Positions 2,550 to 41,172 of a stretch of DNA of 64,000 nucleotides are shown in pieces. Made by a program: the position numbers and the translations under genes. Source of the DNA: Cyanobium sp. NS01 (GTDB lineage: Bacteria > Cyanobacteriota > Cyanobacteriia > PCC-6307 > Cyanobiaceae); the NCBI RefSeq assembly GCF_014280235.1, contig NZ_CP047940.1:1426001-1490000 (forward strand), written 5' to 3'. The notes beneath the pieces are model-generated. The model did not search any database and was not told the origin of the DNA. It saw only the letters and a program-made list of their open reading frames with translations. Position 1 is the stretch's first letter. Each line of letters begins with the position of its first letter.

Positions 2550-2563
2550 TCCCAGCGCTGCTG

Positions 2564-3376: not shown

Positions 3377-3446
3377 AGCCAGCCCGGCTGCAGGTCCTTG
3401 AGGGCGGATCGGCCGCCTAAGGTCAGGTCCCCCAAGCAGTGTCTCA

Positions 3447-5759
3447 ATGGCGGTCCCCACTGTGGAGTGGATGGTGGACGATGCCCGCCGCCTGGCGGAG
3501 TGCCGCCATGACCATCCCTTTGCCGTGCTCGGGCATCAGCCCCTGGGAGGCGGCAGCTGGGTGGTGCGGGCCTGGCTGCCGGAAGCGGAGCAGGTGAGCC
3601 TGCTGAGCGGCGAGCTCAGCCTGCCGATGACCGCACCCCACCACCCCTGGGTGTTTGAGGCGGAGCTGTCCCACGACCCCGGCCCGGCCTATCGGCTGCG
3701 GGTTCAACGGGGGGGCCTCACCCATGAGGCCCACGACCCCTGGGCCTTCCGCGACGAGTGGATGGGCGAACTCGATCGCCATCTTTTTGCCGAGGGCAAC
3801 CACCACCACATCTGGCACCGCATGGGGGCCCATCGGCTCGAGCGAGACGGTGTCGCCGGCGTGATGTTCTGCCTGTGGGCACCCAATGCCCGCAGCGTGG
3901 CGGTGCTGGGCCCCTTCAACAACTGGGATGGTCGCCACCATCCGATGCAGTCGCGGCTGGGAGGCTGCTGGGAACTGTTCATCCCGGGTCTGGACGCCGG
4001 CGCCATCTACAAGTACGAGGTGCGCTCCCAGGCCGGCCACTGCTACCAGAAGGCCGACCCCTACGGCTTCCGCCACGAGGTGCGGCCCGCCAATGCCTCG
4101 ATCGTGGAGCCGCTGGGTCACTTCGCCTGGAGCGACGACGGCTGGATGGGCCAGCGGGACAGCCGCAATCCGCTGGATCAGCCGATTTCGGTGTACGAGA
4201 TGCACCTCGGCAGCTGGATGCACGGCAGCGCCGAGCAGCCCTTTCTGGAAGAGAACGGCCGGGCCAGAACGCCGATCCAGGCCGCAGATCTCAAACCGGG
4301 AGCACGGCTTCTCACCTATCCCGAACTGGCCGACAGGCTGATTCCCTACGTGAAGGCCCGGGGCTTCACCCACATCGAGCTGATGCCGATCTCCGAGCAT
4401 CCCTTCGATGGCTCATGGGGCTACCAGGTGACGGGCTGGTACGCCCCCACCAGCCGCTACGGCACACCGGATGAATTCCGCGCCTTCGTCAACCGCTGCC
4501 ATGCCGAGGGGCTGGGCGTGATTCTCGACTGGGTGCCCGGCCACTTCCCCAAGGATGCCCATGGGCTGGCGTTCTTTGATGGGGCCCACCTCTACGAGCA
4601 TGCCGATCCGCGCATTGGTGAGCACAAGGAATGGGGCACCTTGATCTTCAACTACAGCCGCAATGAGGTGCGCAACTTCCTGGTTGCCAATCTGATCTAT
4701 TGGTTTGAGGAATTCCACATCGATGGCATTCGCGTTGATGCGGTGGCCTCGATGCTCTACCGCGACTACCTGCGCCCCGATGGGGAGTGGCTGGCCAACG
4801 AGCAGGGGGGGCGCGAGAACACCGAAGCGGTGCTGTTCCTGCAGCAGGCCAATCATGTGCTGTTCCAGCACTTCCCCGGCGCCCTTTCCATTGCTGAGGA
4901 GTCGACAACCTGGCCCATGGTGACCCAGCCCACCGACATCGGCGGCCTCGGCTTCAACCTGAAGTGGAACATGGGCTGGATGCACGACATGCTCGATTAT
5001 TTCGAGCTGGATCCGCTAGATCGCCAGTACCACCAGAACAACGTCACGTTCTCGATCTGGTATGCCTACACCGAGAACTTCATGCTGGCCCTCAGCCATG
5101 ATGAGGTGGTGCACGGCAAGAGCCATCTGCTGCACAAGATGCCGGGTGACGACTGGCAGAAGTTCGCCAACGTGCGCGCCCTGCTCGCCTTCATGTGGAC
5201 CCACCCCGGTAAAAAGACCATCTTCATGGGCATGGAGTTTGGCCAGCGCTCCGAGTGGAATGTGTGGGGTGACCTGCAGTGGGACCTGCTCAACCACGCC
5301 CCCCATCAGGGCATCCAGCACCTCGTGGACGACCTCAACGTCTTCTACCGCTCCGAGCGGGCGCTCTGGGGCGACGACTTCAACGAGTACGGCTTCCAGT
5401 GGATTGATTGCAGTGACAACCGCCACTCCGTGATCAGTTTCATGCGACGCGAGAGTGCCACGGGTCACTGGCTGGTGGTGGTGGCCAACTTCACACCCCA
5501 GAGCCACTCCCACTACCGCATCGGTGTGCCTGTGGAGGGCTACTACAACGAGGTGTTCAACACCGACGCCGAGCGCTACGGCGGCAGCAACCTCGGCAAC
5601 CTCGGCGGCCGCTGCACCGAGGACTGGGCCCTGCACGGCTACGAGCACTCCCTGGATCTGTGCCTGCCCCCCCTGGCCGTGCTGGTGTTTCAGCGGGATG
5701 AGAAGCGCAGTCAGAGGGTCTGTGACGAACGGACCGCCGAAGCCCTGCCAGCCGCCTGA
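3447..5759 (+). CDS. glgB: 1,4-alpha-glucan branching enzyme GlgB (GH13)
   Basis: 770 residues, normal for cyanobacterial GlgB with its extra N-terminal domain. It makes alpha-1,6 branches in glycogen in the cytosol. Visible domains: an N-terminal domain (residues 1-110), a CBM48 (around 130-225, [20 protein letters not shown]), the GH13 barrel, and a C-terminal beta domain. Catalytic residues fit the family spacing: nucleophile Asp431 in IRVDAVASM, acid/base Glu484 in SIAEEST, and the transition-state Asp in LSHDEVVHG. The 53-residue gap between the first two equals that in E. coli GlgB. hemE follows after 56 bases, an order I recall from picocyanobacteria. Confidence 0.97.
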
Positions 5760-26849: not shown

Positions 26850-27596
26850 TTGTTCGATGAGGTGGTTGCCCTGGCGATGCCAGGATCAGGCCAGAGGTGC
26901 CTGGTGGTGACGTTGGCGAGCGCGGCTTCAAGGTCAAGCCGCTACTGCCTGAGCTTCACCGCCGCCAGCCTGCGGCCAGAGCTCGCCGCCGTGATCGCTG
27001 GCATCCACAAGGAGCAGGGCGACTGGAAGCGCACCAAGGCCGCCGTGCTGGAGCGCAATGCCCTGCAGGCGCGATCCGCCAGCACGGCCAAGCGGCTGGA
27101 GTCGGAATTGCGGCAGCGGCTTCAGACCCTCACCCCAGCGCAGCTGGAGCTGCTGGCCACGGGGTCGAGCGACGACCGCACGGCCATGGCCTGGCTGGCG
27201 GCCCTCAAGCGGATCCAGCTGGCCTTTGATGTGGTGCAGAACGTGCTGGCCGAGAAGCTGGCGGGGATGGATCCGGTGCTACGCCGCTCGGACATGGTGG
27301 CGTTCTATGAGATGCAGGAACGCATCCACCCCGAACTGGCCAAGGTGTCGCCCACGTCGGAGCAGAAGATCCGCTCCACCCTCCTGCACATGCTTCGTGA
27401 CGCGGGATTGCTGGCAGGAAAGGCGGGCAAGGGCAGCAGCCTGGGAACGGTGCAACGCGCGCTGCTCAACCCGGAGGCCCTGCAACGGGTGAGCGAGGAC
27501 GACCCGCTCTGGCTGAAGGGCTTTCTGGTTGAAGCTCCGAATCGGGCTGGAGCCTCCGGTACCCGCCGCACCGCCAACAGGAGGGCTGCCCCATGA
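26850..27596 (+). CDS. brxA: BREX protein BrxA (DUF1819 family)
   Basis: 248 residues from the TTG at 26850, six bases after a GGGGAG ribosome site; an ATG at 26877 is an alternative, and the conserved part starts at YCLSFTAASLRPELAAVI. The DUF1819 pattern continues with DWKRTKAAVLERNALQ, RSASTAKRLESELRQRL and IRSTLLHMLRDAGLL. BrxA is a small DNA-binding protein present in type 1 BREX operons. It heads the six-gene operon and overlaps brxB by ATGA. The upstream 166 bases (26684..26849) must hold the operon promoter, which I could not place. Confidence 0.88.
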   Translation: MFDEVVALAMPGSGQRCLVVTLASAASRSSRYCLSFTAASLRPELAAVIAGIHKEQGDWKRTKAAVLERNALQARSASTAKRLESELRQRLQTLTPAQLELLATGSSDDRTAMAWLAALKRIQLAFDVVQNVLAEKLAGMDPVLRRSDMVAFYEMQERIHPELAKVSPTSEQKIRSTLLHMLRDAGLLAGKAGKGSSLGTVQRALLNPEALQRVSEDDPLWLKGFLVEAPNRAGASGTRRTANRRAAP

Positions 27597-28210
27597 CTAA
27601 GGGCTCCACTGCTGGCCTGGATCAGCGCCTCCGCCAGATCCTGACGCGCCCGGAGTTCCTGGCGATGCGGGGTGTGGCCAAGGAAGTGCCGATCTTCATC
27701 CAGACCTACGACCCTGCCGAGGAGGACCAGCTACGGCTGGTGGTGAAGGGTGTGGACCAGTACCTGCGTCAGCAGGGTCTGCGGGTGAAGCAGGTGGACC
27801 TGTTCGAGCTGGTGCTGAACCTGCTCGAGGAGAAGGGCTACCTGGACGTGGTGCTTGAGGAGGAGGCCAGTTGGAGCAAGGGCGATCTGTTCGACACACT
27901 CCAGAACGTGGCGGATCCCACCACGGCCCTGGTGCCCCGGCTGATGGCGGAACTGGGGGCCGACTGCCAGATCAGCCTGATCACCGGATCAGGGCGCGTC
28001 TACCCATTCCTGCGAACCCACACGATCCTGGAAGCGCTCCAACCGGCGATGGTGCGTCACCCGGTGGTGATCTTCTTCCCCGGCGAGTATTCGCAGGATG
28101 CCGATGGGGGCTCCTACCTGCGGCTGTTCGGCACCAGTGCCACCAGCAGGATCGAAAACCCGCATTACCGCGCCACCAACCTCGACTACTACGACATCCA
28201 GAGCGCATGA
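27593..28210 (+). CDS. brxB: BREX protein BrxB (DUF1788 family)
   Basis: 205 residues, typical length. A good Shine-Dalgarno (ACAGGAGG) lies before the ATG, which overlaps the brxA stop. The DUF1788 features are the RLRQILTRPEFL start, VPIFIQTYDP, the middle VDLFELVLNLLEE, and RVYPFLRTHTILEALQP with VVIFFPGEY near the end. Its biochemical role in BREX is not established, though it is needed for defence in studied systems. It overlaps brxC by ATGA, so brxA, brxB and brxC are translationally coupled. Confidence 0.9.
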   Translation: MTKGSTAGLDQRLRQILTRPEFLAMRGVAKEVPIFIQTYDPAEEDQLRLVVKGVDQYLRQQGLRVKQVDLFELVLNLLEEKGYLDVVLEEEASWSKGDLFDTLQNVADPTTALVPRLMAELGADCQISLITGSGRVYPFLRTHTILEALQPAMVRHPVVIFFPGEYSQDADGGSYLRLFGTSATSRIENPHYRATNLDYYDIQSA

Positions 28211-31200
28211 CTGCCACCGCTGCTCACCGCACCATCCGCGAGCTCTTTGCCAAGCCCGTCGATCGGCCGATCGAAGGCGTGATCAAGGCCGATGACGAGC
28301 GCCACCTGGAGGTGGAGCTGGAGGAATACGTGGTCACCCGGGAGGTGAGCAAGGGGCTGGGCGCCTTCACCGACACCTACCTGCACAACCCCACCGCCAA
28401 TGGGGTGTGGATTTCGGGGTTCTTCGGATCGGGCAAGTCGCACCTTTTGAAGATGCTCTCGCTGATACTCGATGGCGACAAGCGCATCGGAGCCCAGGGG
28501 CTTAGGCCAGCGGAGATCCTGCTGCCGAAGGTCGAGGATGAGATCACCCGCGCCGACCTCAAGAAGGCCGCCGCCATGCCGGCACGCAGCCTGCTGTTCA
28601 ACATCGACCAGAAGTTCGACGGCATCGGCGGCAACCACGAGGCACCGATCCTCGAGGTGTTCATGAAGGTGCTCAACGAGCTGCAGGGCTACTACGGCAA
28701 CCAGGGCTATGTGGCCCAGTTCGAGCACGACCTCGACAAGCGTGGGCGGTTTCAGGACTTCAAGGAGACGTACCAGCGCATCAATGGACGGAGCTGGGAG
28801 AACGACCGGGATGCCGTGGCGACGGTGACGAAGCGTTCGTTTGCCAAGGCCTACGCCGACCTGTTCGGGGGCAGCGAGGACGATGCCGCCAAGGTGATCA
28901 ATGACGCCAAGGACAGCTACCGCCTCTCGATCGAGGGCTTTGCCTCCCGCGTGAAGGACTATCTCGAAGGCCAACCCCCCGGCTTCCGGCTCAACTTCTT
29001 TGTGGATGAGGCGGGACAGTTCATCGGTCAGGAACGAAGTCGGCTGCTGAATCTGCAGACGGTGGTGGAAAGCCTGGCCACCGCCACCGATGGGCGTGCC
29101 TCGGTGTTCATCACCTCCCAGGCCGATCTGGAAGGGATTCTGGGCCAGGTGAAGTTTGAGCAGGCGGATGATCTGAGCAAGATTCAGGGCCGCTTCAAGA
29201 CCAAGCTCACCCTGGCCAGCGCCGACGTGCAGGAGGTGATCCAGCGCCGGCTGCTGGCCAAAACGCCGGAGGAACCGGAGCAGCTGATCGACATCTACGA
29301 GCGAGAAAAAGACAACTTCGCCACCCTGTTCCGCTTCGGCGACAACTCCATTCACCTCAAGGGCTGGAGTGATTGCCAGAGCTTCTGCGGCCTCTATCCC
29401 TTCCATCCCTACCAGCTGAGTCTGTTCCAGCAGGCGATCCAGAGCCTGGCCTCCCACAACGTGTTCGAAGGCCGCAACATGGCGGTGGGGGAGCGCTCGA
29501 TGCTCTCGGTGTTCCAGGAGGTGGCCAAGGCGATCAAGGAACTGCCGGTGGGCAGGCTGGCCAGTTTCGATCAGCTGTATGACGGCATCCGCGATGTGAT
29601 CCGCGCCGACAAGCAGCAGACGATGGTGCTGGCCCAGAACCAGGTGGGTCCGCTGGAGTTGCGGATCCTCAAGGCCCTGTTCCTGCTCAAGTGGGTGCCC
29701 CAGTTCAAGAGCACCCCGCGCAACATCTCGATCCTGCTGATCAGCGAGCTGGATTTCGACATCCGCGCCCACGAGCAGGACGTGAAGGATGCTCTGATCA
29801 ACCTGGAGGCGCAGTCGTACCTGCAGCGCAGCGGTGAGGTGTATGAGTTCCTCACCGACAAGGAAAAGGATGTGGAGCAGGAGATCAAGCGCACCGAGGT
29901 GGCCGACTCCCAGGTGATTGGCAGGCTGCACGGCACCGTGTTCAGTGATGTGCTCCGCACCAGCAAGATCCGCTTCGAGGAGAACGGCAACGACTACCCC
30001 TTTGCCCAGAAGATCGACGACGGCCTGATCAAGGGCAAAGAGAACGATGTGGCGGTGAATCTGATCACGCCGGAGCATCAGCACTACGGCCAGGAAGCGG
30101 TGCTTCACAGCCGCAACTTCGGTGGCACGGAGCTGATGGCGATCCTGCCGGCCAAGGGCCGCCTCACCGATCTGATCCGCACCTGGCTGAAGACGGATCT
30201 CTACATCCGCCAGAACAGCGGCGGCGAGGATGAAACACTGAACGCGATCCTCTCGATCCGCGCCAAGCAGAACAGCGCTCGGCAGCAGGAGATCATCCAG
30301 CTTGCAGCCGACTCGCTGCGCAAGGCCACGCTGGTGCTCAACGGCCAGACCCTCTCGATGGGGGAGGGAGAGCCCACAACCCGCTTCAGCAAGGCCTACC
30401 AGGAGCTGATCCGCTCGGCCTACCCCAACCTCAAGATGATCCACGGCAGCTTCAGCGAAGCCACCGTGGCCAAGGTGGTGGAGGAGCAGGACGATCTGCT
30501 CGACGGGATGGACCTGCAGCTTTCGGAGGCCGAGCAGGAGGTGCTGGTGGAGGTGGAGCGGCAGCAGAAGCTGGGCGAGCAGCTCACCGCCGCTGATCTG
30601 GTGAACCGCTTCGAGGCCCGCCCCTACGGTTGGGGCCCCTGGGCCACGCTCACCTTTGTGGCGCGGCTGTACCGGCTCGGGAAGCTGGAGCTGCGGGAAA
30701 AGGAACTGCTGAGCAGCACGGGGGTGATCGACGCCCTCACCAACAGCCGCCGGCTGCCTGGGGTGAGGGTGCGCAAACAGGAGCAGTTTGACGCCAGTGC
30801 GGTGAATGCCCTCAAGCGTTTCCACCAGGAGCTGTTTGGTGTGCAGAACAGCGGCACCGATGCGCGGACAACGGGCGAGGCGTTCCGCACCGCGATGGCG
30901 GCCGAGGCCAGGGACCTGGCTGCCATCGCCAGCAAGGCGGAGACCTATCCCTTCACGGCGGCTGTGGCTCCATGGGTGCAGAAAGCGGAGGAGTTAAGCA
31001 AGAAAGACGACGGCTTTCTGCTCAACCAACTCAGCACCTTCAAGAACGAGTGGCTCGATGCCGAGGAAGACCTGCTCACGCCGATCAAGCAGTTCCTGAA
31101 GGGCAACCAGAAAACGGTGTACGACCAGGTGAAGGTCTTCGCCACCCGCTACAGCGATGAGTTCCCGGACTTGCCGGTCGAGCTGGTGCAACGGCTCAGC

Positions 31201-31701
31201 GCCGTGCTGCAGAGCGAGGCGCCCTACAGCGGCGGATTACTCCCCCAGGCCGCGGAGGCGATGACCCAGCTTCAAAACGAGCTGGAGCAACGCCTGCAGC
31301 AGCTGCAGGCCGAGGCGGTGGGCCAGATCGAGGAGCAGGAGGCGAAGTTCCGGGCGGATGCGGCGTTCCGGCAGCTGGCGGCAAAGCAACAGGCCCAGGT
31401 GCTCGAAACCACCACCAGGGCGAAGGCGGATGTGAAGGCCGCCGCCCAACCCGGCCGGGTGCGCCTGCGCCTGAGTCGCTACCGCCAGGAGGATGTGCCG
31501 AAGCAGCTGCAGCGGATCGCGGCCCTGGCGGCACCGGCAGACAGCCCAACCCATTTGGTCACCGTGGTGCCGGCTTCTGGGTTGGCAGTGCAATGCCCCC
31601 TGAGCCAGATCACCACCAGCGCGGAGCTGGAGCAGTGGCTCGGCGCGCTGCGCGCGGCGGCTCAGGCCGAGCTGGACCGGGGCCATCGGATCAGCCTGTG
31701 A
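28207..31701 (+). CDS. brxC: BREX ATPase BrxC
   Basis: 1164 residues from the ATG at 28207, which overlaps the brxB stop; the frame is open upstream but that part is a shadow of brxB. Walker A GFFGSGKSHL is at residues 71-80, and FFVDEAGQFIG near residue 262 is the likely Walker B. The C-terminal third is a long helical, Gln/Glu-rich region (about 1030-1100, coiled coil). BrxC is the large P-loop ATPase needed for both methylation and phage exclusion in type 1 BREX. No lesion. Confidence 0.93.
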   Translation: MTATAAHRTIRELFAKPVDRPIEGVIKADDERHLEVELEEYVVTREVSKGLGAFTDTYLHNPTANGVWISGFFGSGKSHLLKMLSLILDGDKRIGAQGLRPAEILLPKVEDEITRADLKKAAAMPARSLLFNIDQKFDGIGGNHEAPILEVFMKVLNELQGYYGNQGYVAQFEHDLDKRGRFQDFKETYQRINGRSWENDRDAVATVTKRSFAKAYADLFGGSEDDAAKVINDAKDSYRLSIEGFASRVKDYLEGQPPGFRLNFFVDEAGQFIGQERSRLLNLQTVVESLATATDGRASVFITSQADLEGILGQVKFEQADDLSKIQGRFKTKLTLASADVQEVIQRRLLAKTPEEPEQLIDIYEREKDNFATLFRFGDNSIHLKGWSDCQSFCGLYPFHPYQLSLFQQAIQSLASHNVFEGRNMAVGERSMLSVFQEVAKAIKELPVGRLASFDQLYDGIRDVIRADKQQTMVLAQNQVGPLELRILKALFLLKWVPQFKSTPRNISILLISELDFDIRAHEQDVKDALINLEAQSYLQRSGEVYEFLTDKEKDVEQEIKRTEVADSQVIGRLHGTVFSDVLRTSKIRFEENGNDYPFAQKIDDGLIKGKENDVAVNLITPEHQHYGQEAVLHSRNFGGTELMAILPAKGRLTDLIRTWLKTDLYIRQNSGGEDETLNAILSIRAKQNSARQQEIIQLAADSLRKATLVLNGQTLSMGEGEPTTRFSKAYQELIRSAYPNLKMIHGSFSEATVAKVVEEQDDLLDGMDLQLSEAEQEVLVEVERQQKLGEQLTAADLVNRFEARPYGWGPWATLTFVARLYRLGKLELREKELLSSTGVIDALTNSRRLPGVRVRKQEQFDASAVNALKRFHQELFGVQNSGTDARTTGEAFRTAMAAEARDLAAIASKAETYPFTAAVAPWVQKAEELSKKDDGFLLNQLSTFKNEWLDAEEDLLTPIKQFLKGNQKTVYDQVKVFATRYSDEFPDLPVELVQRLSAVLQSEAPYSGGLLPQAAEAMTQLQNELEQRLQQLQAEAVGQIEEQEAKFRADAAFRQLAAKQQAQVLETTTRAKADVKAAAQPGRVRLRLSRYRQEDVPKQLQRIAALAAPADSPTHLVTVVPASGLAVQCPLSQITTSAELEQWLGALRAAAQAELDRGHRISL

Positions 31702-31742: not shown

Positions 31743-34700
31743 ATGACTGTGAACACCGCCGCCCTGAAAACTTTCGCCCCGGCGATGCGGCGGCAGCTGA
31801 TGGAAGCAGTGGGCCGCAAGCTGGATCTGCTGCTTCACAGCCAGACGCCCGACATCCTGGCCACCTACGCCAGCCAGATCGCAGAGCTGCGGCAGCGGGA
31901 GACAGAGAACCGAGCGGTGCTGCTGGAGCGGGTGGCCTACAGCTGGTTCAACCGGCTGGCGGCGCTGCGCTACCTCGATGCCAAGGGCTGGCATCCGTTT
32001 GGCTGCAAGGTGCTGATGCCAGCCACGGAAGGGGAAACCCAGCCGGGGCTGCTTAAGCTGATGCGCTCAGGCAGCCTGCCGCAGGAGCTCAAGGAGCACT
32101 GCAACGAAACGCGGCTGAACGGGTTGCTGGATGGCCAGATCCCCACGGCCATCGCGGGCGGTGATCCTCAGGGGGAGGTGTACCGCGAACTGGTGCTGGC
32201 GGTCTGCCGCTCGTACCACCAGCTGCTACCGAACCTGTTCGAGGGCCTCGATGACGCCACCGAACTGCTGCTGCCCGACGACCTGCTCACCGACGGCTCG
32301 ATCGCTGCAGGTTTCCGCAGCCAGATCAGCGACGCTGACTGCGAGGACGTGGAGATCATCGGCTGGCTCTACCAGTTCTACATCTCGGAGAAGAAAGACC
32401 AGGTGATCGGCAAGGTGGTGAAGTCGGAAGACATCCCGGCCGCCACGCAGCTGTTCACGCCCAACTGGATCGTGAAGTACATGGTGCAGAACTCGCTGGG
32501 GGCGCAGTGGCTGGCCACGTACCCCGATTCAGCGATCAAGGGGCAGATGGAGTACTACATCGAGCCTGCCGAACAGACCGAGGAGGTGCAGGCCCAGTTG
32601 GCGGCCATCACGCCGGACTCTCTCAACCCTGAGGAGCTGACCCTGATCGATCCAGCCTGTGGCTCAGGGCACATCCTGGTGGAAGCCTATGACCTGTTCA
32701 AGGCTATCTATCTAGAACGTGGCTATCAACAACGGGAGATCCCGCAGTTGATCCTGGAGAAGAATCTGTTTGGGCTTGAGATCTGTCCGCGAGCGGCTCA
32801 GCTCACGAGCTTTGCGCTGATGATGAAGGGTCGGGCGGATGACCGCCGGCTGTTTGAGCGCGGTGTGAAGCTCAATGTGATGGCGCTGGTGGATAGCGGG
32901 GACTTTGATGCCGTTGGCTTAGCGAATGCGGTGCAGCTGGCGGACTATGGGCTGAAGCTCGCGGACCTTACGGAGCTGAAGCGGCTGTTCGAACAAGCGA
33001 CGACGTTTGGGTCGCTGATTCAGGTGCCGGAGAGGCTGGCGGAGAAGCTGCCAGCGCTGAAGCGGCTGAGTGAGGCATCCTGCCAGGACATGCTTGTGTT
33101 GGAGGCGCTCGAGCGGCTGAGACCTCTAGTGCAGCTGGCCGAGTTGCTGGCGGCGCAATATGACGCGGTGGTGGCGAACCCTCCGTACATGGGAAGCAAG
33201 TATCACGTCTCCGCTATCAAGGCCTTTCTTGGAGAGCTGTACCCGGCTGTTAAGTCTGATCTTTTTGCAGCTTTTGTCGCGAGATCTGCCTTGATTGGAA
33301 ACAGTACATCCCGGATTGGAATAATGAGTCCAAACGTATGGATGTACATCTCGACCCACCAGAAGCTTCGCGATCTAATTGCCAGCAGGATGACATTGGC
33401 GAGCCTTGTCGAGCTTCCTCTTTCCGGATTTAAGGGCGCGACTGTTCAGATATGCACATTCACACTTTGGAATTATCGTTCTCATGGTTTCAATGGGAGC
33501 TTCGTTCGTCTTGTAGACCTAAAGGGTGGCGACGCTGAAATGGCCGCTTGTACCCAGCAAGCTATATCTCGTCGCGCATGCGGAAGGATTTTTATTTGTA
33601 GCGTAGACGACTTTAAGTGTATCCCGGGCTCTCCCGTCGCATATTGGGTAAGCAGTAGACTGCGCTCAGCATTTCAGCTGCCAACAAAGCTTAAGAATGT
33701 AGCAAGGCCTAATCAAGCGCTTGTCACTGGCAATACAGAACGCTATATTCGGAGGTGGCAGGAAGTCGACTTGGATAATGTTGGATTTGAGATGAAAAGC
33801 CGTCAACAGGCGATAGACAGCGGCAAGACATGGTTCCCATATAACAAAGGGGGGGACTTCAGGAAATGGTATGGGAATAACGAGCACCTTGTAAATTGGA
33901 AAAACGATGGTGAGGAGCTTCGTACAACGATGCACCCGACGGGGAAGCGCATCTGGGCCCACAACTTTGTGCTCGACTTTATTTTTAGAAGGGCTATTGT
34001 ATGGAGTAAGATTACGTCTGCTATTCCATGCTATCGCCTCTCGGACGATGGATTCCTGTATGACGACGCATCTGGAGTGTGTCAAGTAGAAGCAGGCCTC
34101 GAATACTTCCTCCAAGGCTTTCTTGCTAGCCAGGTAAGTCTGCTTATGATAGCGCTAATCAATCCAACTCTGAATATTCAGCCTGGCAACCTCGAGGTTC
34201 TTCCCTTGACTTTTCCGCCTGAGGATGTCGATCAAGTAGTCAAAGATCTGCTATCCCTATCGCGTGTTGACTGGGATAGCTTTGAGACCTCCTGGGGCTT
34301 TCATGAATCTCCACTACTCAAGCACGAGTCGGATTGCTTATCTTTAGAGACTGGGTGGCGTAGTTGGAAGTCCGAGAGTCAGGCTGTCATCGGCCGAATG
34401 CGGGAGTTAGAGACAGAGAATAACCGCATCTTCATCAACGCCTATGGTCTGCACGATGAGCTCACCCCGGAAGTGCCCATTGAGCAGATCACCATTAAGG
34501 CAAACCCCGCCTACCGCTACGGCGGCAAGCTCAGCGAAGAGGAGCAGTGGTCCCGGTTCCGCGCCGACACCATGGAGGAGCTGCTCTCCTATGCCGTGGG
34601 CTGCATGATGGGTCGCTACAGCCTGGACAAGCCTGGCCTGATTCTGGCCGATTCCCGCAGTAGCCAAGACGAGCATCTGGCTGCCTATCAGGAGAAGATG

Positions 34701-35321
34701 GGCAAGCCTATGGCATATCTGCGCTTCAGGCCTGATGACGACGCCATCCTCCCCGTGCTCGATGGCGAGTGGTTTCAAGACGACATCGTAGCCCGCAGCC
34801 GGGAATTCCTGCGGGTCGCCTTTCCGGGAAGCAACATCATCGACAACCTGCGCTTCCTGGAAGAGGCGATCGGCAAGGACCTTCGGAAGTACTTCTGCAC
34901 TGACTTCTACAAATCCCACCTGCAGACCTATAAGAACCGGCCGATCTACTGGATGGTGCAGAGCCCTAAGAGGGGCTTCGCCTGCCTGATTTACCTGCAC
35001 CGCTACACCAAGGACACCCTGCTCCTGGTGCTCAACAACTACTTCCGCCCCTACCTGCAGAAGCTGGAAGCCCGCCTCGCCCAGCTCGACTTGGATCAAG
35101 CCAACGACGACCTCCCCACTCGTGAGCGCACCGCTGCCCGTAAAGAGGCCGAGAAGATCACCAAGGTGCTGCGCGAATGCCAGGAGTGGGAGCAGGATGC
35201 CCTGTTGCCCCTGGCCCAGCAGCGCATCGAGCTGGATCTCGATGATGGCGTGAAGGTGAACTACCTGAAGCTGCAGGACGTGCTGGCCAAGATCCCCGGC
35301 ATTAAGGCGAAGGAGGAGTGA
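31743..35321 (+). CDS. pglX: BREX adenine-specific DNA methyltransferase PglX
   Basis: 1192 residues, normal for type 1 PglX. It methylates adenine in a non-palindromic site, marking host DNA. Motif I DPACGSGHIL is at 303-312 and motif IV NPPY at 479-482. From about 33190 to 34430 (residues about 483-896) the DNA becomes clearly AT-rich with different codon choice, then returns to the GC-rich host style at NNRIFINAYGLH. That segment covers the target-recognition part. A run of seven G at 33849..33855 lies inside it. The gene is open throughout. The stop overlaps the pglZ GTG. Confidence 0.94.
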   Translation: MTVNTAALKTFAPAMRRQLMEAVGRKLDLLLHSQTPDILATYASQIAELRQRETENRAVLLERVAYSWFNRLAALRYLDAKGWHPFGCKVLMPATEGETQPGLLKLMRSGSLPQELKEHCNETRLNGLLDGQIPTAIAGGDPQGEVYRELVLAVCRSYHQLLPNLFEGLDDATELLLPDDLLTDGSIAAGFRSQISDADCEDVEIIGWLYQFYISEKKDQVIGKVVKSEDIPAATQLFTPNWIVKYMVQNSLGAQWLATYPDSAIKGQMEYYIEPAEQTEEVQAQLAAITPDSLNPEELTLIDPACGSGHILVEAYDLFKAIYLERGYQQREIPQLILEKNLFGLEICPRAAQLTSFALMMKGRADDRRLFERGVKLNVMALVDSGDFDAVGLANAVQLADYGLKLADLTELKRLFEQATTFGSLIQVPERLAEKLPALKRLSEASCQDMLVLEALERLRPLVQLAELLAAQYDAVVANPPYMGSKYHVSAIKAFLGELYPAVKSDLFAAFVARSALIGNSTSRIGIMSPNVWMYISTHQKLRDLIASRMTLASLVELPLSGFKGATVQICTFTLWNYRSHGFNGSFVRLVDLKGGDAEMAACTQQAISRRACGRIFICSVDDFKCIPGSPVAYWVSSRLRSAFQLPTKLKNVARPNQALVTGNTERYIRRWQEVDLDNVGFEMKSRQQAIDSGKTWFPYNKGGDFRKWYGNNEHLVNWKNDGEELRTTMHPTGKRIWAHNFVLDFIFRRAIVWSKITSAIPCYRLSDDGFLYDDASGVCQVEAGLEYFLQGFLASQVSLLMIALINPTLNIQPGNLEVLPLTFPPEDVDQVVKDLLSLSRVDWDSFETSWGFHESPLLKHESDCLSLETGWRSWKSESQAVIGRMRELETENNRIFINAYGLHDELTPEVPIEQITIKANPAYRYGGKLSEEEQWSRFRADTMEELLSYAVGCMMGRYSLDKPGLILADSRSSQDEHLAAYQEKMGKPMAYLRFRPDDDAILPVLDGEWFQDDIVARSREFLRVAFPGSNIIDNLRFLEEAIGKDLRKYFCTDFYKSHLQTYKNRPIYWMVQSPKRGFACLIYLHRYTKDTLLLVLNNYFRPYLQKLEARLAQLDLDQANDDLPTRERTAARKEAEKITKVLRECQEWEQDALLPLAQQRIELDLDDGVKVNYLKLQDVLAKIPGIKAKEE

Positions 35322-37867
35322 TCAAGAAAGCCATGACCACCTCACCCACCCGAATCCGAATCCAGGACAGCCTTGACGCTGCTCTCGCGCGCAAGCGGGT
35401 GGTGCTCTGGTACGACCCCACCGGCGAGTGGGCGGAGGACTTCGACAGCTACCAACCCAAAGCCGCCGAGAAGCGGCGCGTGGTTGGCAATGAGTTCACC
35501 ATCAAGGTGGCCATCAGCCGTGCTCCCCTGCACCACCGCTTTCTGCTCTACATCCCCTCTGAGAAGCCCCCAGAACCCGACAACTGGCTGCTCGATCTGC
35601 TTCTGGCGGGCCATGAATTCAAGGCCGACCGCGCCTCTCTCGACATCCAGGAGGCCGGCCTGACGCTGGAGTTCAAGGCGTTGGCCCAGCAGCACGAGGC
35701 CTTCTTCCGCTCCCCCTTCCACACCCAGCACCTCAAGGATCTGCTGCGCCCCAACGAGGACGAGAACGCCGTACGTCTCAAGATGCTGGCCGTGTTGGCC
35801 AAGCAGCCGCCGGACATCGACAAGTTGCTGCTCCGTGCCTTCAGCCAACTGGATCCCACCGATGCCGAGGCCGACGATCCGGTGGAGGCGACCTACGGCA
35901 GCGCGCAACTCAGCGGGCACTTCTGGAAAACCGTGGCCAGCAAATTCGGCTATCGCAGCCCGGCTCCCAGCCTGCGCGACTTCGCCGTGGCGTTGTTCCG
36001 GAGCGCCAGTCCGATCGGCCCCCAGGGTGATCTGCAGCCCCACAGCCGGGTGTTCCTCAGCTTCTGGAAAGACAGCCTCACCAACCGGCCGGCTTTTGTG
36101 GCCTGGTCGGAAGCCATGGCCCAGCTCCTGGCCATCGAGCCGCAGCTCAACGACGCGCCTCCAGAGTTCGACCCCGGAGAAGAAGACAGCTTCGAGCTGA
36201 TCGAACGCTTCGTGCTGCATCGGCTCGTGCAGGGGTTTGCCGCCGGTGATCCCGAGGAGCAGCTGCTGCAGACCATCCGCAACCGCCGCCACTCCACCTG
36301 GTACGAGAAACACCAGCACGGCTATCAAGCGATCGAGCAGGCCATCAGCCTGCGCAGCCTCCTGCAGAAGGCCGCGCTGCAGGTGGAGAGCTTCGAGGCG
36401 GGCTTGCAGCATTACACCAACAGCTGGTGGCGCATCGATGCGGCCTACCGCCGCTGCACCTTTCACGCCCGCGCCTATCAGCAGCCCGGCCTGCTCCAGC
36501 AGCTCCGCCACTGGGTGGAGAGCCACTACGTGAACAACTTCCTGCTTCCCCTCACCAACCACTGGAGTGATCACGTGGCCGGCCTCACCCAGTGGCGTTC
36601 CGACGCCCTACCCCGGCAGAAGGAGTTCCACATGCGCTATGTGCATGCACCCCTGAGTTCCAGGGGCCTGAAGCGGCTGTTTGTGGTGATCTCCGATGCC
36701 CTCCGTTACGAGGCCGCCCGCGATTTCGCCGAGCGCCTGCAAAACCAGCCCGGCAAGGGCTGGCAGGTGGAGATGCAGGCACTGCTGGGTTCACTGCCCT
36801 CCTACACCCAGCTGGGCATGGCCTCTCTGTTGCCCGGCGCCCAGGTGAGCCTCAACCCCGCCGACGGCTCGGCCATGGTGGATGGTGTGAGCGCCACCGG
36901 CACCGACAACCGCGACAAGATCCTCAAGGCCTACGCCGATGGTCGCGCCAAGGCTCTGCTGGCCGAAGACTTCCTCAATCTCCCCACCAAGACCGCTGGA
37001 CGGGAGCTCACCCGTGACCACGACCTGATCGTGATCTACCACAACCGCATCGATCAGGTGGGCGACAAGCTGGCCACCGAAGTCCAGACGTTCCAGGCGG
37101 TGGAGCAGGCGTTTGAGGACCTGGAGCAGATCCTGCGCAAGATCGGCAGCCTCAAGGGAAGCCAGGCGCTGATCACCGCCGACCATGGCTTTCTGTTCCA
37201 GCAGAAACCTCTGGATGCCAACGACAAGGCCGTGTTCCCCCCAGCGGATCAGCTGCCCACCAAGAGCCGGCGATTCGCGCTCGGCGATGGCATCGAGCCG
37301 AGGCCCGGCCAGAAGATCTTCGCGGCCCAGGCCCTCGGGTTCACCGGCAGCTGGAGTGCCGTCTTCCCTCTGGGCCTCGATCGCTTCCCGATCAAGGGCT
37401 CGGGGGCCCGCTTCGTGCATGGCGGCACCTCCCTGCAGGAGGTGGTGGTGCCGGTGATCAAGCTCAGACGCGAGACCAAGGAGGAGAGCCGCCTGGTGGA
37501 GGTGGACGTGCTGCGGCTGCCCGCCAAGATCACCACCACGCGCCTGAAGGTGTCTCTGTTCCAGCGCGACCCCGTGGAGGCCAAGAACGTACTGCCCCTG
37601 CAGCTGCGCATCGGCCTCTATGCCAAGGCCGATGACGCCCCCCTCTGCGCCCCCCGTACCTTGCTGTTTGATTCGGCCGCCTCCGATCCCCGCGAGCGGG
37701 AGCAACAGCTCACGCTGGAGCTCTCCAATGCCGCCGATGCCTACAACAACCAGCCGGTGGAGCTGCGTCTGGAGCGGGTGGTGGAGGGTGTCGCCACCCC
37801 CGTTCCCTACAAGACTGAGGAGCTGAAGCTGCAGCGGCCCTTCGGCAGCGATTTCGAAGACTTCTGA
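35318..37867 (+). CDS. pglZ: BREX alkaline-phosphatase-fold protein PglZ (type A)
   Basis: 849 residues from the GTG at 35318, which overlaps the pglX stop as elsewhere in this operon; an ATG at 35333 would lose five residues. The N-terminal half (KRVVLWYDPTGEWAEDF) is the type-A PglZ region. The phosphatase-like core shows metal-ligand candidates Asp in VVISDALRYEAAR and His in LITADHGFLFQQ. PglZ is essential for BREX modification and defence, though its substrate is unclear. It lies nine bases from brxL. Confidence 0.93.
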   Translation: MIKKAMTTSPTRIRIQDSLDAALARKRVVLWYDPTGEWAEDFDSYQPKAAEKRRVVGNEFTIKVAISRAPLHHRFLLYIPSEKPPEPDNWLLDLLLAGHEFKADRASLDIQEAGLTLEFKALAQQHEAFFRSPFHTQHLKDLLRPNEDENAVRLKMLAVLAKQPPDIDKLLLRAFSQLDPTDAEADDPVEATYGSAQLSGHFWKTVASKFGYRSPAPSLRDFAVALFRSASPIGPQGDLQPHSRVFLSFWKDSLTNRPAFVAWSEAMAQLLAIEPQLNDAPPEFDPGEEDSFELIERFVLHRLVQGFAAGDPEEQLLQTIRNRRHSTWYEKHQHGYQAIEQAISLRSLLQKAALQVESFEAGLQHYTNSWWRIDAAYRRCTFHARAYQQPGLLQQLRHWVESHYVNNFLLPLTNHWSDHVAGLTQWRSDALPRQKEFHMRYVHAPLSSRGLKRLFVVISDALRYEAARDFAERLQNQPGKGWQVEMQALLGSLPSYTQLGMASLLPGAQVSLNPADGSAMVDGVSATGTDNRDKILKAYADGRAKALLAEDFLNLPTKTAGRELTRDHDLIVIYHNRIDQVGDKLATEVQTFQAVEQAFEDLEQILRKIGSLKGSQALITADHGFLFQQKPLDANDKAVFPPADQLPTKSRRFALGDGIEPRPGQKIFAAQALGFTGSWSAVFPLGLDRFPIKGSGARFVHGGTSLQEVVVPVIKLRRETKEESRLVEVDVLRLPAKITTTRLKVSLFQRDPVEAKNVLPLQLRIGLYAKADDAPLCAPRTLLFDSAASDPREREQQLTLELSNAADAYNNQPVELRLERVVEGVATPVPYKTEELKLQRPFGSDFEDF

Positions 37868-37875
37868 AGCCAGCC

Positions 37876-40044
37876 ATGACCACAACCTCCAACACGGCCA
37901 CCAACAGCGCAGTTCAGGCTCACAGCCCCCTGGATCAGAAGATCCTCGAGCACTTCCCCGGCCTGGTGGTCCGCAAGGACCTCACCACCGAACTCAAGCA
38001 GAACGCGGTGGTGCCCACCTACGTGCTGGAGTACCTGCTCGGGCAGCACTGCGCCACCGACGATCCCACCCTGATCGCCGAAGGCCTGGAATCGGTGCGG
38101 CGCATCCTCGCCAAGCACTACGTGCACCGCAACCAGGCGGAGCTGGTGAAATCGACCATCAAGGAGCGGGGCACCCACAAGGTGATCGACAAGCTCACCG
38201 TGGAGCTCAATGACAAAGGCGGCTTCTACGAGGTGGAGTTCACCAACCTCGGGCTCAAAAAAGTCCCCATCGATGTGGACTTCATCAAGCGCTACCCCAA
38301 GCTGCTGGTGGGCGGCATCTGGGCGATCACCGATGTGGAGTACGAACTCCCCACCGACCCCAAGGCCAGCCCCTGGCAGATCTCAAGCGTCAAACCCATC
38401 CAGGTGGCTGGCGTCGATCACGACGAATTTCTCGCCGCCCGCGCCAAGTTCAGCACCGATGAGTGGATGGACGTTCTCATGCAGAGCGTGGGCTTCAACC
38501 CGGAGTTCTTCAGCCGCCGGGCCAAGCTGCTCACCTTGATCCGGCTGATCCCTTACTGCGAGCGCAACTACAACCTGCTGGAGCTCGGCCCCAAGGGAAC
38601 CGGCAAATCCCACATCTTCGCTGAGTTCTCCCCCCACGGCATGCTGATCTCAGGCTCGGAGGTCACCGCGCCCAAGCTGTTCGTGAGCAATGCCAGCGGC
38701 AAGATCGGCCTGGTCGGCTACTGGGACTGCATCTGCTTCGACGAGTTCGCCGGCAAGGACAAGCGTGTCGACAAGACGCTGGTCGACATCATGAAGAACT
38801 ACATGGCCAACCGCACTTTCTCGCGCGGCATCGAGCAGCTCAGCGCCGAAGCCTCGATGGTGTTCATGGGCAACACCCAGAAGTCGGTGGCCACCATGCT
38901 CAAGCATTCGCACTTCTTTGAGCCGCTGCCGGATAAGTACATCGATTCGGCCTTCATCGACCGCCTCCATGCCTTCAACCCCGGCTGGGAGGTGGCACCG
39001 GTGCGTCACGAGTTGTTCTGTACCGGCTACGGCTTCGTGGTCGACTACATCGCTGAGGTGCTCAAGCACCTGCGCACTGAGGACTACACCGGCCTGTACA
39101 AGCCGTTCTTTGAGATCAGCTCCGAGGTGTCGACCCGTGATCAGACGGGCTTTGAGAAGACCTTCTCTGGCCTGATGAAGATCATTCATCCCAATGGCAA
39201 GGCCAGTCAGGAGGAGATCGCTGAGCTGCTGGAGTTTGCGATGGAATGCCGCCGGCGGGTGCGGGAGCAGATCCTGCGAATCGATTCCACCTTCAAGGCC
39301 AACGACTTCATCTACCGAGACCTGGAAACCGGCAAGGCGGTGACGGTGCTCACGCCGGAAGAGAAGCAGTACCCCGCCTTTGCAGGACTTCGGCCTCTTT
39401 CCACCGAAGGAAATGAGAAGGCAGAGCCAGTTCCTGGCGAGGGAGGTCAGCCTGTTGCGTCAACAAACACATCCCCAGTCGCCTCTGACGGTGCACCCCT
39501 TCCGGCATCAACAGTCAAGGACAAAGTGGCCCCACAGCCACCTGAGCCTTCAGCTCTCAAGGAGCATCATCTGGTAGTGCCTGAAAACTCCAAGGGTTGG
39601 AGCTACCGGCGCTTGTTCGGCGACCACCTCAGTGGTGCCACCGGGATCATCATTCGGGATCCCTACATCCGGGCCTTCCACCAGATCCGCAACCTCGTGG
39701 AGTTCTTGCGCATGGTCAATGAGATCACCCCCGTGGGCGATGAGGTGACAGTGCATCTGATCACCGGTTCCGATCACGAGACGATGGAGAGGCAAGTAGA
39801 AATTCTGGGCAAAGTCCAGGATTCCTTCGCGGGAACCAGCACTCCCTTTTCCTGGGAGATCGACGCCAGCCCCAACTTCCATGCCCGTAGCCTCACCACC
39901 AATACGGGCTGGAAAATTACCCTTGACCGTGGATTGGATCTCTTCCAGAGGTTCGAGTCTTCTCCCTTCAACGCGGCAGCCGCCGTGCAGGAAGCACGAT
40001 TGACCAAGGGATGTGAGATCAGCTACATCGCCGCGAAGCCATGA
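37876..40044 (+). CDS. brxL: BREX AAA+ protein BrxL with a C-terminal MIT_C-like domain
   Basis: 722 residues. Residues 1-500 are a BrxL core: FPGLVVRKDLTTELKQ at the start, Walker A GPKGTGKSH at 238-246 and Walker B DCICFDEFAG near 285-294. The core ends near DFIYRDLETG as in short BrxL proteins. A Pro/Ser/Glu-rich linker (about 510-568) follows, then a domain of about 150 residues (SYRRLFGDHLSGATGIIIRD, then PYIRAFHQIRNLVEFLRMV) that looks like the phospholipase-D-like MIT_C domain. I see no Lon-protease Ser-Lys dyad. BrxL drives phage restriction in type 1 BREX. The gene closes the operon and converges on the Mrr gene five bases away. Confidence 0.9.
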   Translation: MTTTSNTATNSAVQAHSPLDQKILEHFPGLVVRKDLTTELKQNAVVPTYVLEYLLGQHCATDDPTLIAEGLESVRRILAKHYVHRNQAELVKSTIKERGTHKVIDKLTVELNDKGGFYEVEFTNLGLKKVPIDVDFIKRYPKLLVGGIWAITDVEYELPTDPKASPWQISSVKPIQVAGVDHDEFLAARAKFSTDEWMDVLMQSVGFNPEFFSRRAKLLTLIRLIPYCERNYNLLELGPKGTGKSHIFAEFSPHGMLISGSEVTAPKLFVSNASGKIGLVGYWDCICFDEFAGKDKRVDKTLVDIMKNYMANRTFSRGIEQLSAEASMVFMGNTQKSVATMLKHSHFFEPLPDKYIDSAFIDRLHAFNPGWEVAPVRHELFCTGYGFVVDYIAEVLKHLRTEDYTGLYKPFFEISSEVSTRDQTGFEKTFSGLMKIIHPNGKASQEEIAELLEFAMECRRRVREQILRIDSTFKANDFIYRDLETGKAVTVLTPEEKQYPAFAGLRPLSTEGNEKAEPVPGEGGQPVASTNTSPVASDGAPLPASTVKDKVAPQPPEPSALKEHHLVVPENSKGWSYRRLFGDHLSGATGIIIRDPYIRAFHQIRNLVEFLRMVNEITPVGDEVTVHLITGSDHETMERQVEILGKVQDSFAGTSTPFSWEIDASPNFHARSLTTNTGWKITLDRGLDLFQRFESSPFNAAAAVQEARLTKGCEISYIAAKP

Positions 40045-40048
40045 CGGC

Positions 40049-41098
40049 TCAGTCGCTCTGGCTTGCCACCATCCATACCCGCTTTAGTGGCAACTCCAAT
40101 CTGATCCCCTCCGGCAGCCGTTCGTAGTTGGCGTAGAGCTTCACCAGCAGATCTTTACGGCTCCAGAGGCGCACCTTGAAGAAGCTGGCGGCCAGTTCCT
40201 TCTGCACATTGGGCTTGAACCCACTCCAACTCACGAACAGGCACTTTTCAGCGCCGAACTTCTGCCCGGCCCCGATCAACTTGTCCACCGTGGGGCGATC
40301 AACCGGCCCATCGCCAGACTTCACCTCGACGCAGATCGAAGGCTTCCCGAATCCCAGTTCACCCCCTCCGGCCAGGATGTCGGCACCACCATCGGCACCC
40401 TCCGGGCTGCGATAGGTGCTGTACCCCTCAGCTTTGAGGATCGCCTCCACCAGCTCGGTGAGGCCATGCCCCTTGAACCTGGCCTCGATCAGCCGCTCTA
40501 CCTGATCGGCTGCAAGTTCCTCCAGGTTGACGCTACCGGCTTCGGTGGCGTCGATCGTTTCACCCATACTCGTGGGCTCAGGGACAGCCAGCACCGCCGA
40601 GACGGTCTCGGGCTGCCATTGGTTGGCCCCCATGGCCCTCACCCTGGCTTCGGCGTCGTTCCGCTGCACGCGGCAGATGGTCAGGAACGCGCCAAAGGAA
40701 TAGAGGATGTCTTGCGGGAAGCTGCTCCTGGGGATCAGGCCACTGAACCAGTGGATGCTCCGCCAGTGGAAGTAGGGATCAGGGCCCTCAGGCTCAAAGT
40801 GATAGCAGCTGGTGATCTCCCCGAAGTACAGACCTGACTGCAGCTTGGAGGGCATCACGACCCAGTCGCCAGGTTGCATGTCATGGCCAAAGGCCCAGAT
40901 CTGCGACGACCAGTTGATCAACGCTTTCTGCTTCTCATCCGGGTAGCGCTGAGCCAAGGCAGCGATCAGGGCCTGCCGGTCGCCCAGGCCGAGCAGATCC
41001 ACGGTCAACTCCTCCCAGCAGACATAGATCCGGCTCTCGTCCAGAAACTTCTGCTCCTGCTCGCCATGGGAGCCGGCTCGGACCATCCAGAGGGTCAT
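40049..41098 (-). CDS. Mrr-type restriction endonuclease with EVE/PUA-like N-terminal domain
   Basis: 349 residues from the ATG at 41098; the frame continues to 41149 but the usual start of such proteins is MTLWMVRAG. The N-terminal half (MVRAGSHGEQEQKF then VVMPSKLQSGLYFGEI) has the layout of an EVE/PUA-like reader of modified bases. The C-terminal half is the Mrr catalytic domain, with the Asp in EGADGGADILAG and the ExK in ICVEVKSGDG, about 20 residues apart. Such proteins cut DNA carrying foreign modification, so it would complement BREX, which attacks unmodified DNA. Its tail converges on brxL. Confidence 0.85.
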   Translation of the reverse strand: MTLWMVRAGSHGEQEQKFLDESRIYVCWEELTVDLLGLGDRQALIAALAQRYPDEKQKALINWSSQIWAFGHDMQPGDWVVMPSKLQSGLYFGEITSCYHFEPEGPDPYFHWRSIHWFSGLIPRSSFPQDILYSFGAFLTICRVQRNDAEARVRAMGANQWQPETVSAVLAVPEPTSMGETIDATEAGSVNLEELAADQVERLIEARFKGHGLTELVEAILKAEGYSTYRSPEGADGGADILAGGGELGFGKPSICVEVKSGDGPVDRPTVDKLIGAGQKFGAEKCLFVSWSGFKPNVQKELAASFFKVRLWSRKDLLVKLYANYERLPEGIRLELPLKRVWMVASQSD

Positions 41099-41172
41099 GG
41101 ACTGTTGCCTGCAACCTTGAGCATGATCGAACCATTGGGTTGTGTCCATAACAACCCACCCACGAGTCCTCG

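Follow-up and report, generated by a model that had tools for sequence, protein, structure and literature searches.

BREX-1 operon and brxL gene

The window, the whole stretch of 64,000 nucleotides of Cyanobium sp. NS01 that was analyzed (contig NZ_CP047940.1, positions 1,426,001 to 1,490,000), holds a complete BREX type 1 operon, with brxA, brxB, brxC, pglX, pglZ, and brxL following one another in that order (Table 1). The true start of BrxC probably lies near 28231, since the BrxC model begins at residue 121. The product of the last gene has both the BrxL_N and the BrxL_ATPase domains, and its TIGR02688 score is well above the cut-off of that model. Tail to tail with brxL lies a gene for an Mrr-type nuclease, which is likely an auxiliary nuclease of the BREX locus; homologues occupy the same place in loci L048 (6503 to 7594) and L052 (1387 to 2457), and a short piece of one is found in L059.

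TABLE 1 Features of the BREX-1 locus, with positions counted from the first nucleotide of the window
Feature	Position	Strand	Evidence
BrxA	26850..27596	+	PADLOC, E 5e-38
BrxB	27593..28210	+	PADLOC, E 2.1e-41
BrxC (longest ORF)	27871..31701	+	NF033441, 993 bits
PglX (BrxX) methyltransferase, BREX-1 type	31743..35321	+	NF033452, 1241 bits
PglZ, BREX-1 type A	35318..37867	+	TIGR02687, 591 bits
brxL (722 aa), final gene of the operon	37876..40044	+	TIGR02688, 570 bits (cut-off, 329); PADLOC PDLC02508 spans residues 18-720
BrxL_N domain, residues 25-156	37948..38343	+	Pfam, 156 bits
BrxL AAA+ ATPase core (BrxL_ATPase), residues 167-477	38374..39306	+	Pfam, 407 bits
Flexible Pro/Ser/Ala/Glu-rich linker, residues 497-566	39364..39573	+	Composition, pLDDT, dN
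MIT_C (PLD-fold) tail, residues 574-718	39595..40029	+	Pfam, phmmer, profile, fold comparison
HARSLTTN, residues 669-676, with HxR(x4)N where PLD enzymes have HxK(x4)D	39880..39903	+	Tail alignments
Mrr-type nuclease	40049..41149	-	PDC-S02, 482 bits

The AAA+ core is that of a normal BrxL, as the sequence-only reading had proposed. Residues 14 to 498 of the full-length model resemble the solved Acinetobacter BrxL, with which the protein shares its N-terminal and AAA+ domains (8emh; Z 27.8 over 404 residues, 37% identity), and residues 14 to 507 match 8emc. A phmmer search with the full protein matched 8emc through residues 18 to 485 only. The full-length model has a mean pLDDT of 70.5, with much of the AAA+ core (residues 231 to 339) below 50. 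The long Pro/Ser linker described in the same reading is likewise there, with 12 Pro and 6 Ser in 70 residues; pLDDT is below 50 from residue 505 to residue 558, and in most pairs dN (NG86) is higher in the linker than in the core or the tail. The linker ahead of the tail is probably disordered.

The BrxL tail is an MIT_C domain

The segment behind the linker had been claimed, from the letters alone, to be an MIT_C domain of the PLD fold rather than a Lon-like one, and both motifs quoted from it, RRLFGDHLSGATGIIIRD and PYIRAFHQIRNLVEF, are present in BrxL. The claim was borne out by profile search and by structure prediction. Pfam MIT_C (PF16565) matched the tail with 108.2 bits (E 4.3e-31) against a curated cut-off of 25 bits, and the match covered model positions 1 to 141 of 142. 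A search of the whole genome gave 112.2 bits for the tail as the single MIT_C match, and none of 14 control genomes contained one, so that a chance similarity is ruled out. With a single sequence as the query, phmmer matched BrxL residues 566 to 695 to human MITD1 (4a5z) at an E value of 5.9e-15, and a profile of five tail sequences reached the same protein at 9e-26.

The predicted structures led to the same protein. The tail modeled from 48 sequences has a pLDDT of 94 and a pTM of 0.90, and in Foldseek its first match was MITD1 (E 2.3e-15, TM 0.83/0.85), followed by Zucchini and NucT at 1e-4 to 4e-4. In the VIA comparison it matched MITD1 4a5z with a Z of 21.9 and an rmsd of 1.9 Å over 152 residues, and residues 562 to 720 of the full-length model matched MITD1 with a Z of 21.5. 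The next fold match was the restriction endonuclease SauUSI (Z 10.7), and the PLD nucleases NgoAVII, NucT, Nuc, and BfiI gave 9.2, 8.9, 8.4, and 7.8, respectively, where a Z below 8 may be background. MITD1 has an N-terminal MIT domain, where BrxL has its AAA+ core, and no MIT domain was found in BrxL among Pfam matches up to an E value of 1.

A Lon-like tail is ruled out. The match to TIGR02653, the model of Lon-related BrxL, breaks off at position 482 of the 675 in that model and, at 578 bits, falls short of its cut-off (628); a custom Lon-tail HMM found no match in the Cyanobium sp. NS01 BrxL; and the solved BrxL structures match the full-length model only to residue 498 or 507. The C-terminal domain of the Acinetobacter BrxL, in contrast, is described as Lon/RadA-like, lying far from the DNA and joining two rings tail to tail (PMC10164562). 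In the Cyanobium protein, this Lon-like domain is replaced by an MIT_C domain, a compact phospholipase D (PLD) fold whose homologue in human MITD1 is the C-terminal half of that protein.

Relation to published tails

Such tails have been described before. Rakesh and Krishnan (NAR 2026; PMC12839542) report a C-terminal "HKD-endoDNase," with the Lys replaced by Arg, in 1030 of 2913 type-1 BrxL proteins; they judge the resulting HRD motif to be probably active, describe the tail as specific to type-1 and type-4 BrxL as having no C-terminal extensions, and credit an earlier Menshen paper for such tails. Another paper, PMC12715929, lists PF16565 among the BREX Pfams, citing an earlier study, and was the sole BREX-related paper found when BrxL with MIT_C, or PF16565 by itself, was sought in the open-licence literature. 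The tail swap itself is therefore known.

The published "HKD-endoDNase" class is in all likelihood that of the MIT_C-tailed BrxL, since each of 47 full-length BrxL proteins in our samples (two sample centers included) had either a Lon-like or an MIT_C tail. The two descriptions agree in the position of the tail after the AAA+ core, in the PLD fold class, and in the HxR(x4)D motif. They differ in that the Cyanobium tail has Asn for Asp, the family is named here as MIT_C, and one type-4-like BrxL carries the tail as well; the passages of PMC12839542 on the "HKD-endoDNase" mention neither MITD1 nor MIT_C. Within the open-licence literature, we found no paper that joined BrxL and MITD1, and none on MITD1 and horizontal gene transfer. 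The present analysis adds the kinship with MITD1, residue evidence that speaks against the nuclease reading, the type-4-like case, and the homologue sets.

Distribution of the MIT_C tail

BrxL_ATPase was sought in 339 genomes from the phylum of Cyanobium sp. NS01, 299 from the phylum of a Pseudomonas locus, and 198 from the phylum of a Phaeodactylibacter locus, and proteins of 640 aa or more were counted as full-length BrxL. MIT_C tails were found in 11 of 19 such proteins in the first phylum (NS01 included), 4 of 10 in the second, and 10 of 16 in the third, and all of the others (8, 6, and 6, respectively) were Lon-like. Together, 25 of the 45 proteins had MIT_C tails, 20 had Lon-like tails, and none had neither, a ratio that is rough because some rows are near-copies (L029 to L033). 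The 45 exclude the centers L141 and L145, which had been picked for carrying an MIT_C tail, as well as short BrxL proteins, 11 in the cyanobacterial sample and 3 in that of the Bacteroidota; L160, L176, L177, L182, and L183 were dropped as having no BrxL core by phmmer, and one place in the cyanobacterial BrxL_ATPase sample has no locus. The other two BrxL proteins found in the family of Cyanobium sp. NS01 itself (genomes G270 and G314) are Lon-tailed. With about half of the sampled full-length proteins carrying MIT_C, and with the "HKD-endoDNase" in print, the swap is not the unusual feature that the sequence-only reading took it for.

Searched in the other direction, PF16565 is nearly confined to BrxL in the three samples. 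Matches above the cut-off fell in BrxL in 11 of 13 genomes of the first, cyanobacterial sample (Cyanobium sp. NS01 included), at 11 of 13 places in the Bacteroidota sample, and at 5 of 5 in the Pseudomonadota sample, with the centers included in the latter two. A two-pattern scan of genome contigs matched 442 stretches; in 412 of them a tail relative was encoded, and the top 80 of the 412 were retained. The tail was also found in 25 plasmid records, with brxL annotated under the match in 17 and the name "MIT C-terminal domain-containing" given in 2; phage records gave no match to the Cyanobium tail at an E value of 0.01. A tie between the tail and the Mrr neighbor was rejected: among the sampled loci, whose flanks are often short, an Mrr homologue above 500 bits was found only in Cyanobium sp. 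NS01, L048, and L052, and a 62-bit piece lies behind brxL in L059. In a separate observation, the BrxL tails of a Candidatus Gracilibacteria metagenome-assembled genome and of Pseudomonas benzenivorans (L126 and L114) do not differ over 164 aa, and the contig is probably misbinned.

Pocket residues and selection

Catalysis in the PLD superfamily depends on the motifs HxK(x4)D and GSxN. Neither is present in the Cyanobium tail, which reads HARSLTTN at the first and has Asp/Gly and Gly at the spacings expected for the second. We compared 131 distinct MIT_C sequences, consisting of 127 BrxL tails (or cut-off pieces taken as such) and 4 sequences from other proteins (L185, L188, L207, and L209). 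The His was kept in 130, the exception being L204 with Gln. The Lys position held Arg in 130 and Cys in one (L248), and Lys in none. The Asp position held Asp in 116, Asn in 12, including Cyanobium sp. NS01, and Ser in 3. The columns at the GSxN spacing, as placed by the general motif and not by a structure alignment, held Asp in 104, Gly in 25, Tyr in 1, and a gap in 1, and then Gly in 130 and a gap in 1. An alignment of 48 BrxL tails has 21 invariant positions, including DPYxR, HxR, GW, and RGLD, and 17 of these are kept by human MITD1, 17 by the Thioflavicoccus tail L187, and 19 by the type-4-like tail described below. MITD1 (4a5z, 2ymb) belongs to the same family over nearly the whole domain, with 42 identities to the BrxL tail in 150 positions, and has HxR(x4)N as in Cyanobium, whereas the Cyanobium tail has DRGLD in place of its GRGLD.

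Tails without the motif Asp are under purifying selection. For the tails of Cyanobium sp. NS01 and L048, both with Asn, dN/dS was 0.056; it was 0.088 for a Ser/Ser pair, 0.043 to 0.121 for Asn/Asp pairs, and 0.043 to 0.064 for a set made up of L057/L058 and the four Asp/Asp pairs with a value. These are simple NG86 pairs, several with dS above 1, and one tail pair gave no value. When 25 cores from picocyanobacteria and outgroups were placed in a tree, 7 rows were without the Asp; the best tree has 3 changes, of which well-supported branches force only 1. A decaying remnant or mere spacer, functionless in the Cyanobium lineage, might be suspected from the loss of the motif Asp in the clade of Cyanobium sp. 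NS01, but with dN/dS held at 0.043 to 0.121 (pairs giving a value) next to a fast linker, the invariant positions intact, and a tail model at such high pLDDT, it is very improbable.

The same residues bear on the main rival to a binding or assembly module, an active DNA endonuclease in the HRD form. The BrxL rings would be loaded onto phage DNA that lacks the modification, and cutting by the tails would serve as a back-up to PglZ. This is the function proposed in PMC12839542 for the 1030 BrxL proteins of that class. The fold lies near PLD restriction nucleases, from SauUSI, the best match after MITD1, down to BfiI (whose Z, below 8, may be background); His and Arg are almost invariant and the Asp is present in most sequences, as in an enzyme site, and the Arg might do the work of the Lys. 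A kept His, Arg, and mostly Asp would fit an active site, and the tail may be an unusual enzyme. Nuclease activity is nevertheless doubtful, because Lys is found in none of the sequences and the Asp has been lost in 15 of 131, Cyanobium and other branches included, under purifying selection. The tails resemble Nuc, NucT, BfiI, and SauUSI in fold (Z 7.8 to 10.7, the lowest perhaps background) but not in the HxK and GSxN residues of the PLD motif, with Gly standing where the motif spacing would put the Asn. Furthermore, most of their invariant positions are shared with MITD1, for which we know of no nuclease activity. K758 of PLD2 is presumably the Lys of the HKD motif. The Lys-to-Arg mutant K758R serves as a catalytically inactive PLD2 (PMC10942622). 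Judged by these residues, PLD chemistry in MIT_C tails is unlikely, and we hold the endonuclease to be a tentative reading, well short of an even chance.

Acquisition of the tail

For a tree of BrxL cores, a set of 154 was reduced to 60 by an identity threshold of 82%. In this tree, 35 of 36 MIT_C-tailed cores formed one group (SH-aLRT 100), separate from the cores of Lon-tailed and of short BrxL. The exception, L181, grouped with BrxL proteins that are short and have no tail (100). A single gain of MIT_C shared by every BrxL was rejected for L181 (AU p 0.0004, lnL difference 103), in a test whose group was named after the tree had been seen and in which L181 is a long branch. Read from this tree, the L181 BrxL gained its MIT_C domain independently. 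The locus (L189, 1 to 13427, and L268, G786:C10) encodes a methylase of the Eco57I type (988 aa or longer), a DUF4007/SspB-like protein, a weak AAA match, an ATPase that is SspC-like (129 bits) and BrxC-like (45 bits), the BrxL with its MIT_C domain (148 bits), and an AIPR/AbiU-like protein, along with a PglZ match under the Pfam cut-off; of four of its proteins compared with NCBIfam, only BrxL matched a model. We call it type-4-like because of the SspB/SspC likeness and the core tree. The case stands against the published type-1 specificity of the tail. The same genome also has a type-1 BrxL of the MIT_C group, with PglZ (L167/L225).

A third set, designated MITB, comprises tails with HDRE...GRGLD from Thioflavicoccus (L187), Hymenobacter (L184 and L186), and contigs filed as viral (from L231 to L246). 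The L187 tail matched MITD1 at an E value of 1.3e-39. Identity to human MITD1 is 45% for L187, 43% for L186, 40% for L184, and highest for L236 at 47%, compared with 29% for the Cyanobium tail. In a tree of 40 tails, unrooted, with rows chosen by hand and one eukaryotic row, MITD1 and eight MITB tails formed one group (bootstrap 100, SH-aLRT 98), with the type-4-like tail next (98/91).

The MITB cores fall with Lon-tailed systems (97) in a 58-row core tree from which further rows had been removed by hand, and the MITB PglZ proteins fall with the same systems (100) in a PglZ tree that carries a long-branch warning, leaves out L263 and L265 (36 and 19 bits), and uses 34 MIT_C rows picked by hand from 70. 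This agreement suggests that the MITB tail was acquired separately from that of the Cyanobium group; one acquisition for both was not rejected on the core tree (AU p 0.294). PglZ mostly follows tail type, with 4 changes in 52 rows where the minimum possible is 2. In L262 (G657), a Lon-tailed BrxL stands beside a PglZ of the kind that goes with MIT_C tails, a combination that points to the exchange of entire BrxL genes. The MITB form is rare in the sequences sampled. Of 24 plasmid records matched by the MITB tail, only the query's own and two Hymenobacter records reached 49% identity, and 147 genomes around Phaeodactylibacter gave 5 matches, 31 to 34% identical, none of the MITB form.

Other carriers of MIT_C

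Sixteen contigs filed as viral in IMG/VR (L231 to L246) encode relatives of the Thioflavicoccus tail, 15 of them at 68 to 72% identity, and PglZ is also found on five. Ten of the 16 loci have a BrxL core above 300 bits in the frame of the tail; L242 to L245 have a 360-aa frame with a partial BrxL core (72 bits), and L246 is a fragment only. The contigs are either phage-borne BREX systems or plasmids and defense islands filed as viral. On L240, a 646-aa frame (2294 to 4231, plus strand) ends in a MITD1-like MIT_C domain (105 bits) and has no BrxL core match; it represents either another architecture or a broken gene. On a plasmid of Hymenobacter sp. BRD67 (L184, 7391 to 9432), the brxL annotation is split into several pieces, the MIT_C tail being listed as its own protein, and a short PglZ-domain protein is encoded nearby. 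It is apparently a broken copy.

MIT_C also occurs with other partners. Plasmid pTs485 of Candidatus Thiodictyon syntrophicum (L185, 6640 to 9483) encodes a 947-aa dynamin-family GTPase (Dynamin_N) that ends in MIT_C, has weak LeoA/LeoBC matches in PADLOC, and is possibly membrane-linked. A region of G803 (L223, 2410 to 12945) has a DrmMI-like methylase, an Mrr PDC-S02, a protein with MIT_C and 17 Sel1 repeats, and an HEC-07-like protein. It is a possible defense island, and no relative of the Sel1 protein was confirmed on viral contigs. In L188, IF2_N and MIT_C are found in one protein. We infer that these combinations with Dynamin_N, Sel1 repeats, or IF2_N fit a binding module.

MITD1 acts in cytokinesis and binds membranes through its MIT_C domain, which is described as a PLD-like fold (PMC6015221). 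The BrxL tail might likewise bind membrane phospholipid and so place BrxL at the membrane where phage DNA enters. The MITB tails, at 40 to 47% identity to MITD1 and in one group with it, and the fusion to a GTPase of a membrane-linked class would agree with this. However, MIT_C is also found without an evident membrane part, with Sel1 repeats beside a methylase and Mrr or with IF2_N, and the Cyanobium tail is the more distant form, so that a membrane role for it is an unlikely reading, to which we give clearly less weight than to the nuclease.

Proposed role of the tail

We propose that the MIT_C tail is a degenerate PLD domain that serves as a phosphate-binding or assembly module in place of the Lon-like, ring-dimerizing domain, a reading that we put at a probability of about 0.5. 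As a degenerate PLD, the tail would keep the phosphate-binding cleft of the superfamily (DPYxR, HxR, GW, and RGLD), presumably without the catalytic Lys and Asn. It would sit where the Lon-like domain would, on a longer leash. PLD-fold domains of MIT_C size pair up, as in Nuc, BfiI, and MITD1. Since the Lon-like domain joins the rings in the solved BrxL and small PLD relatives pair, the MIT_C tail would most likely take over ring pairing by analogy. It may also grip a phosphate-bearing ligand. Candidates are the DNA that runs through the ring, a nucleotide or phosphoprotein, and a phospholipid. Such a tail would govern the timing of BrxL assembly on phage DNA and would leave the DNA uncut.

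A bolder proposal, which we offer as speculative, is that the membrane-binding domain of MITD1 is a bacterial defense module, passed between bacteria and the eukaryotic line, whose closest sampled relatives are the tails of BREX BrxL. Both would be a non-cutting, phosphate-gripping relic of a PLD that anchors a machine forming rings or filaments to its target, and BREX would have recruited it at least twice (type-1 and type-4-like) and probably three times.

Implications

It is still not settled how BREX acts against phage. On the published reading, about one-third of type-1 BrxL proteins are nucleases, an assignment made by motif and fold. Should the MIT_C tail instead be a binding module that has no catalytic role, this assignment falls, and the question becomes what trait the Lon-like and MIT_C tails share, such as ring joining or ligand gripping. 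The close kinship of some BrxL tails with human MITD1 links bacterial immunity to an ESCRT-associated protein, and the tails provide a bacterial homologue set for testing what the conserved pocket of MITD1 binds.
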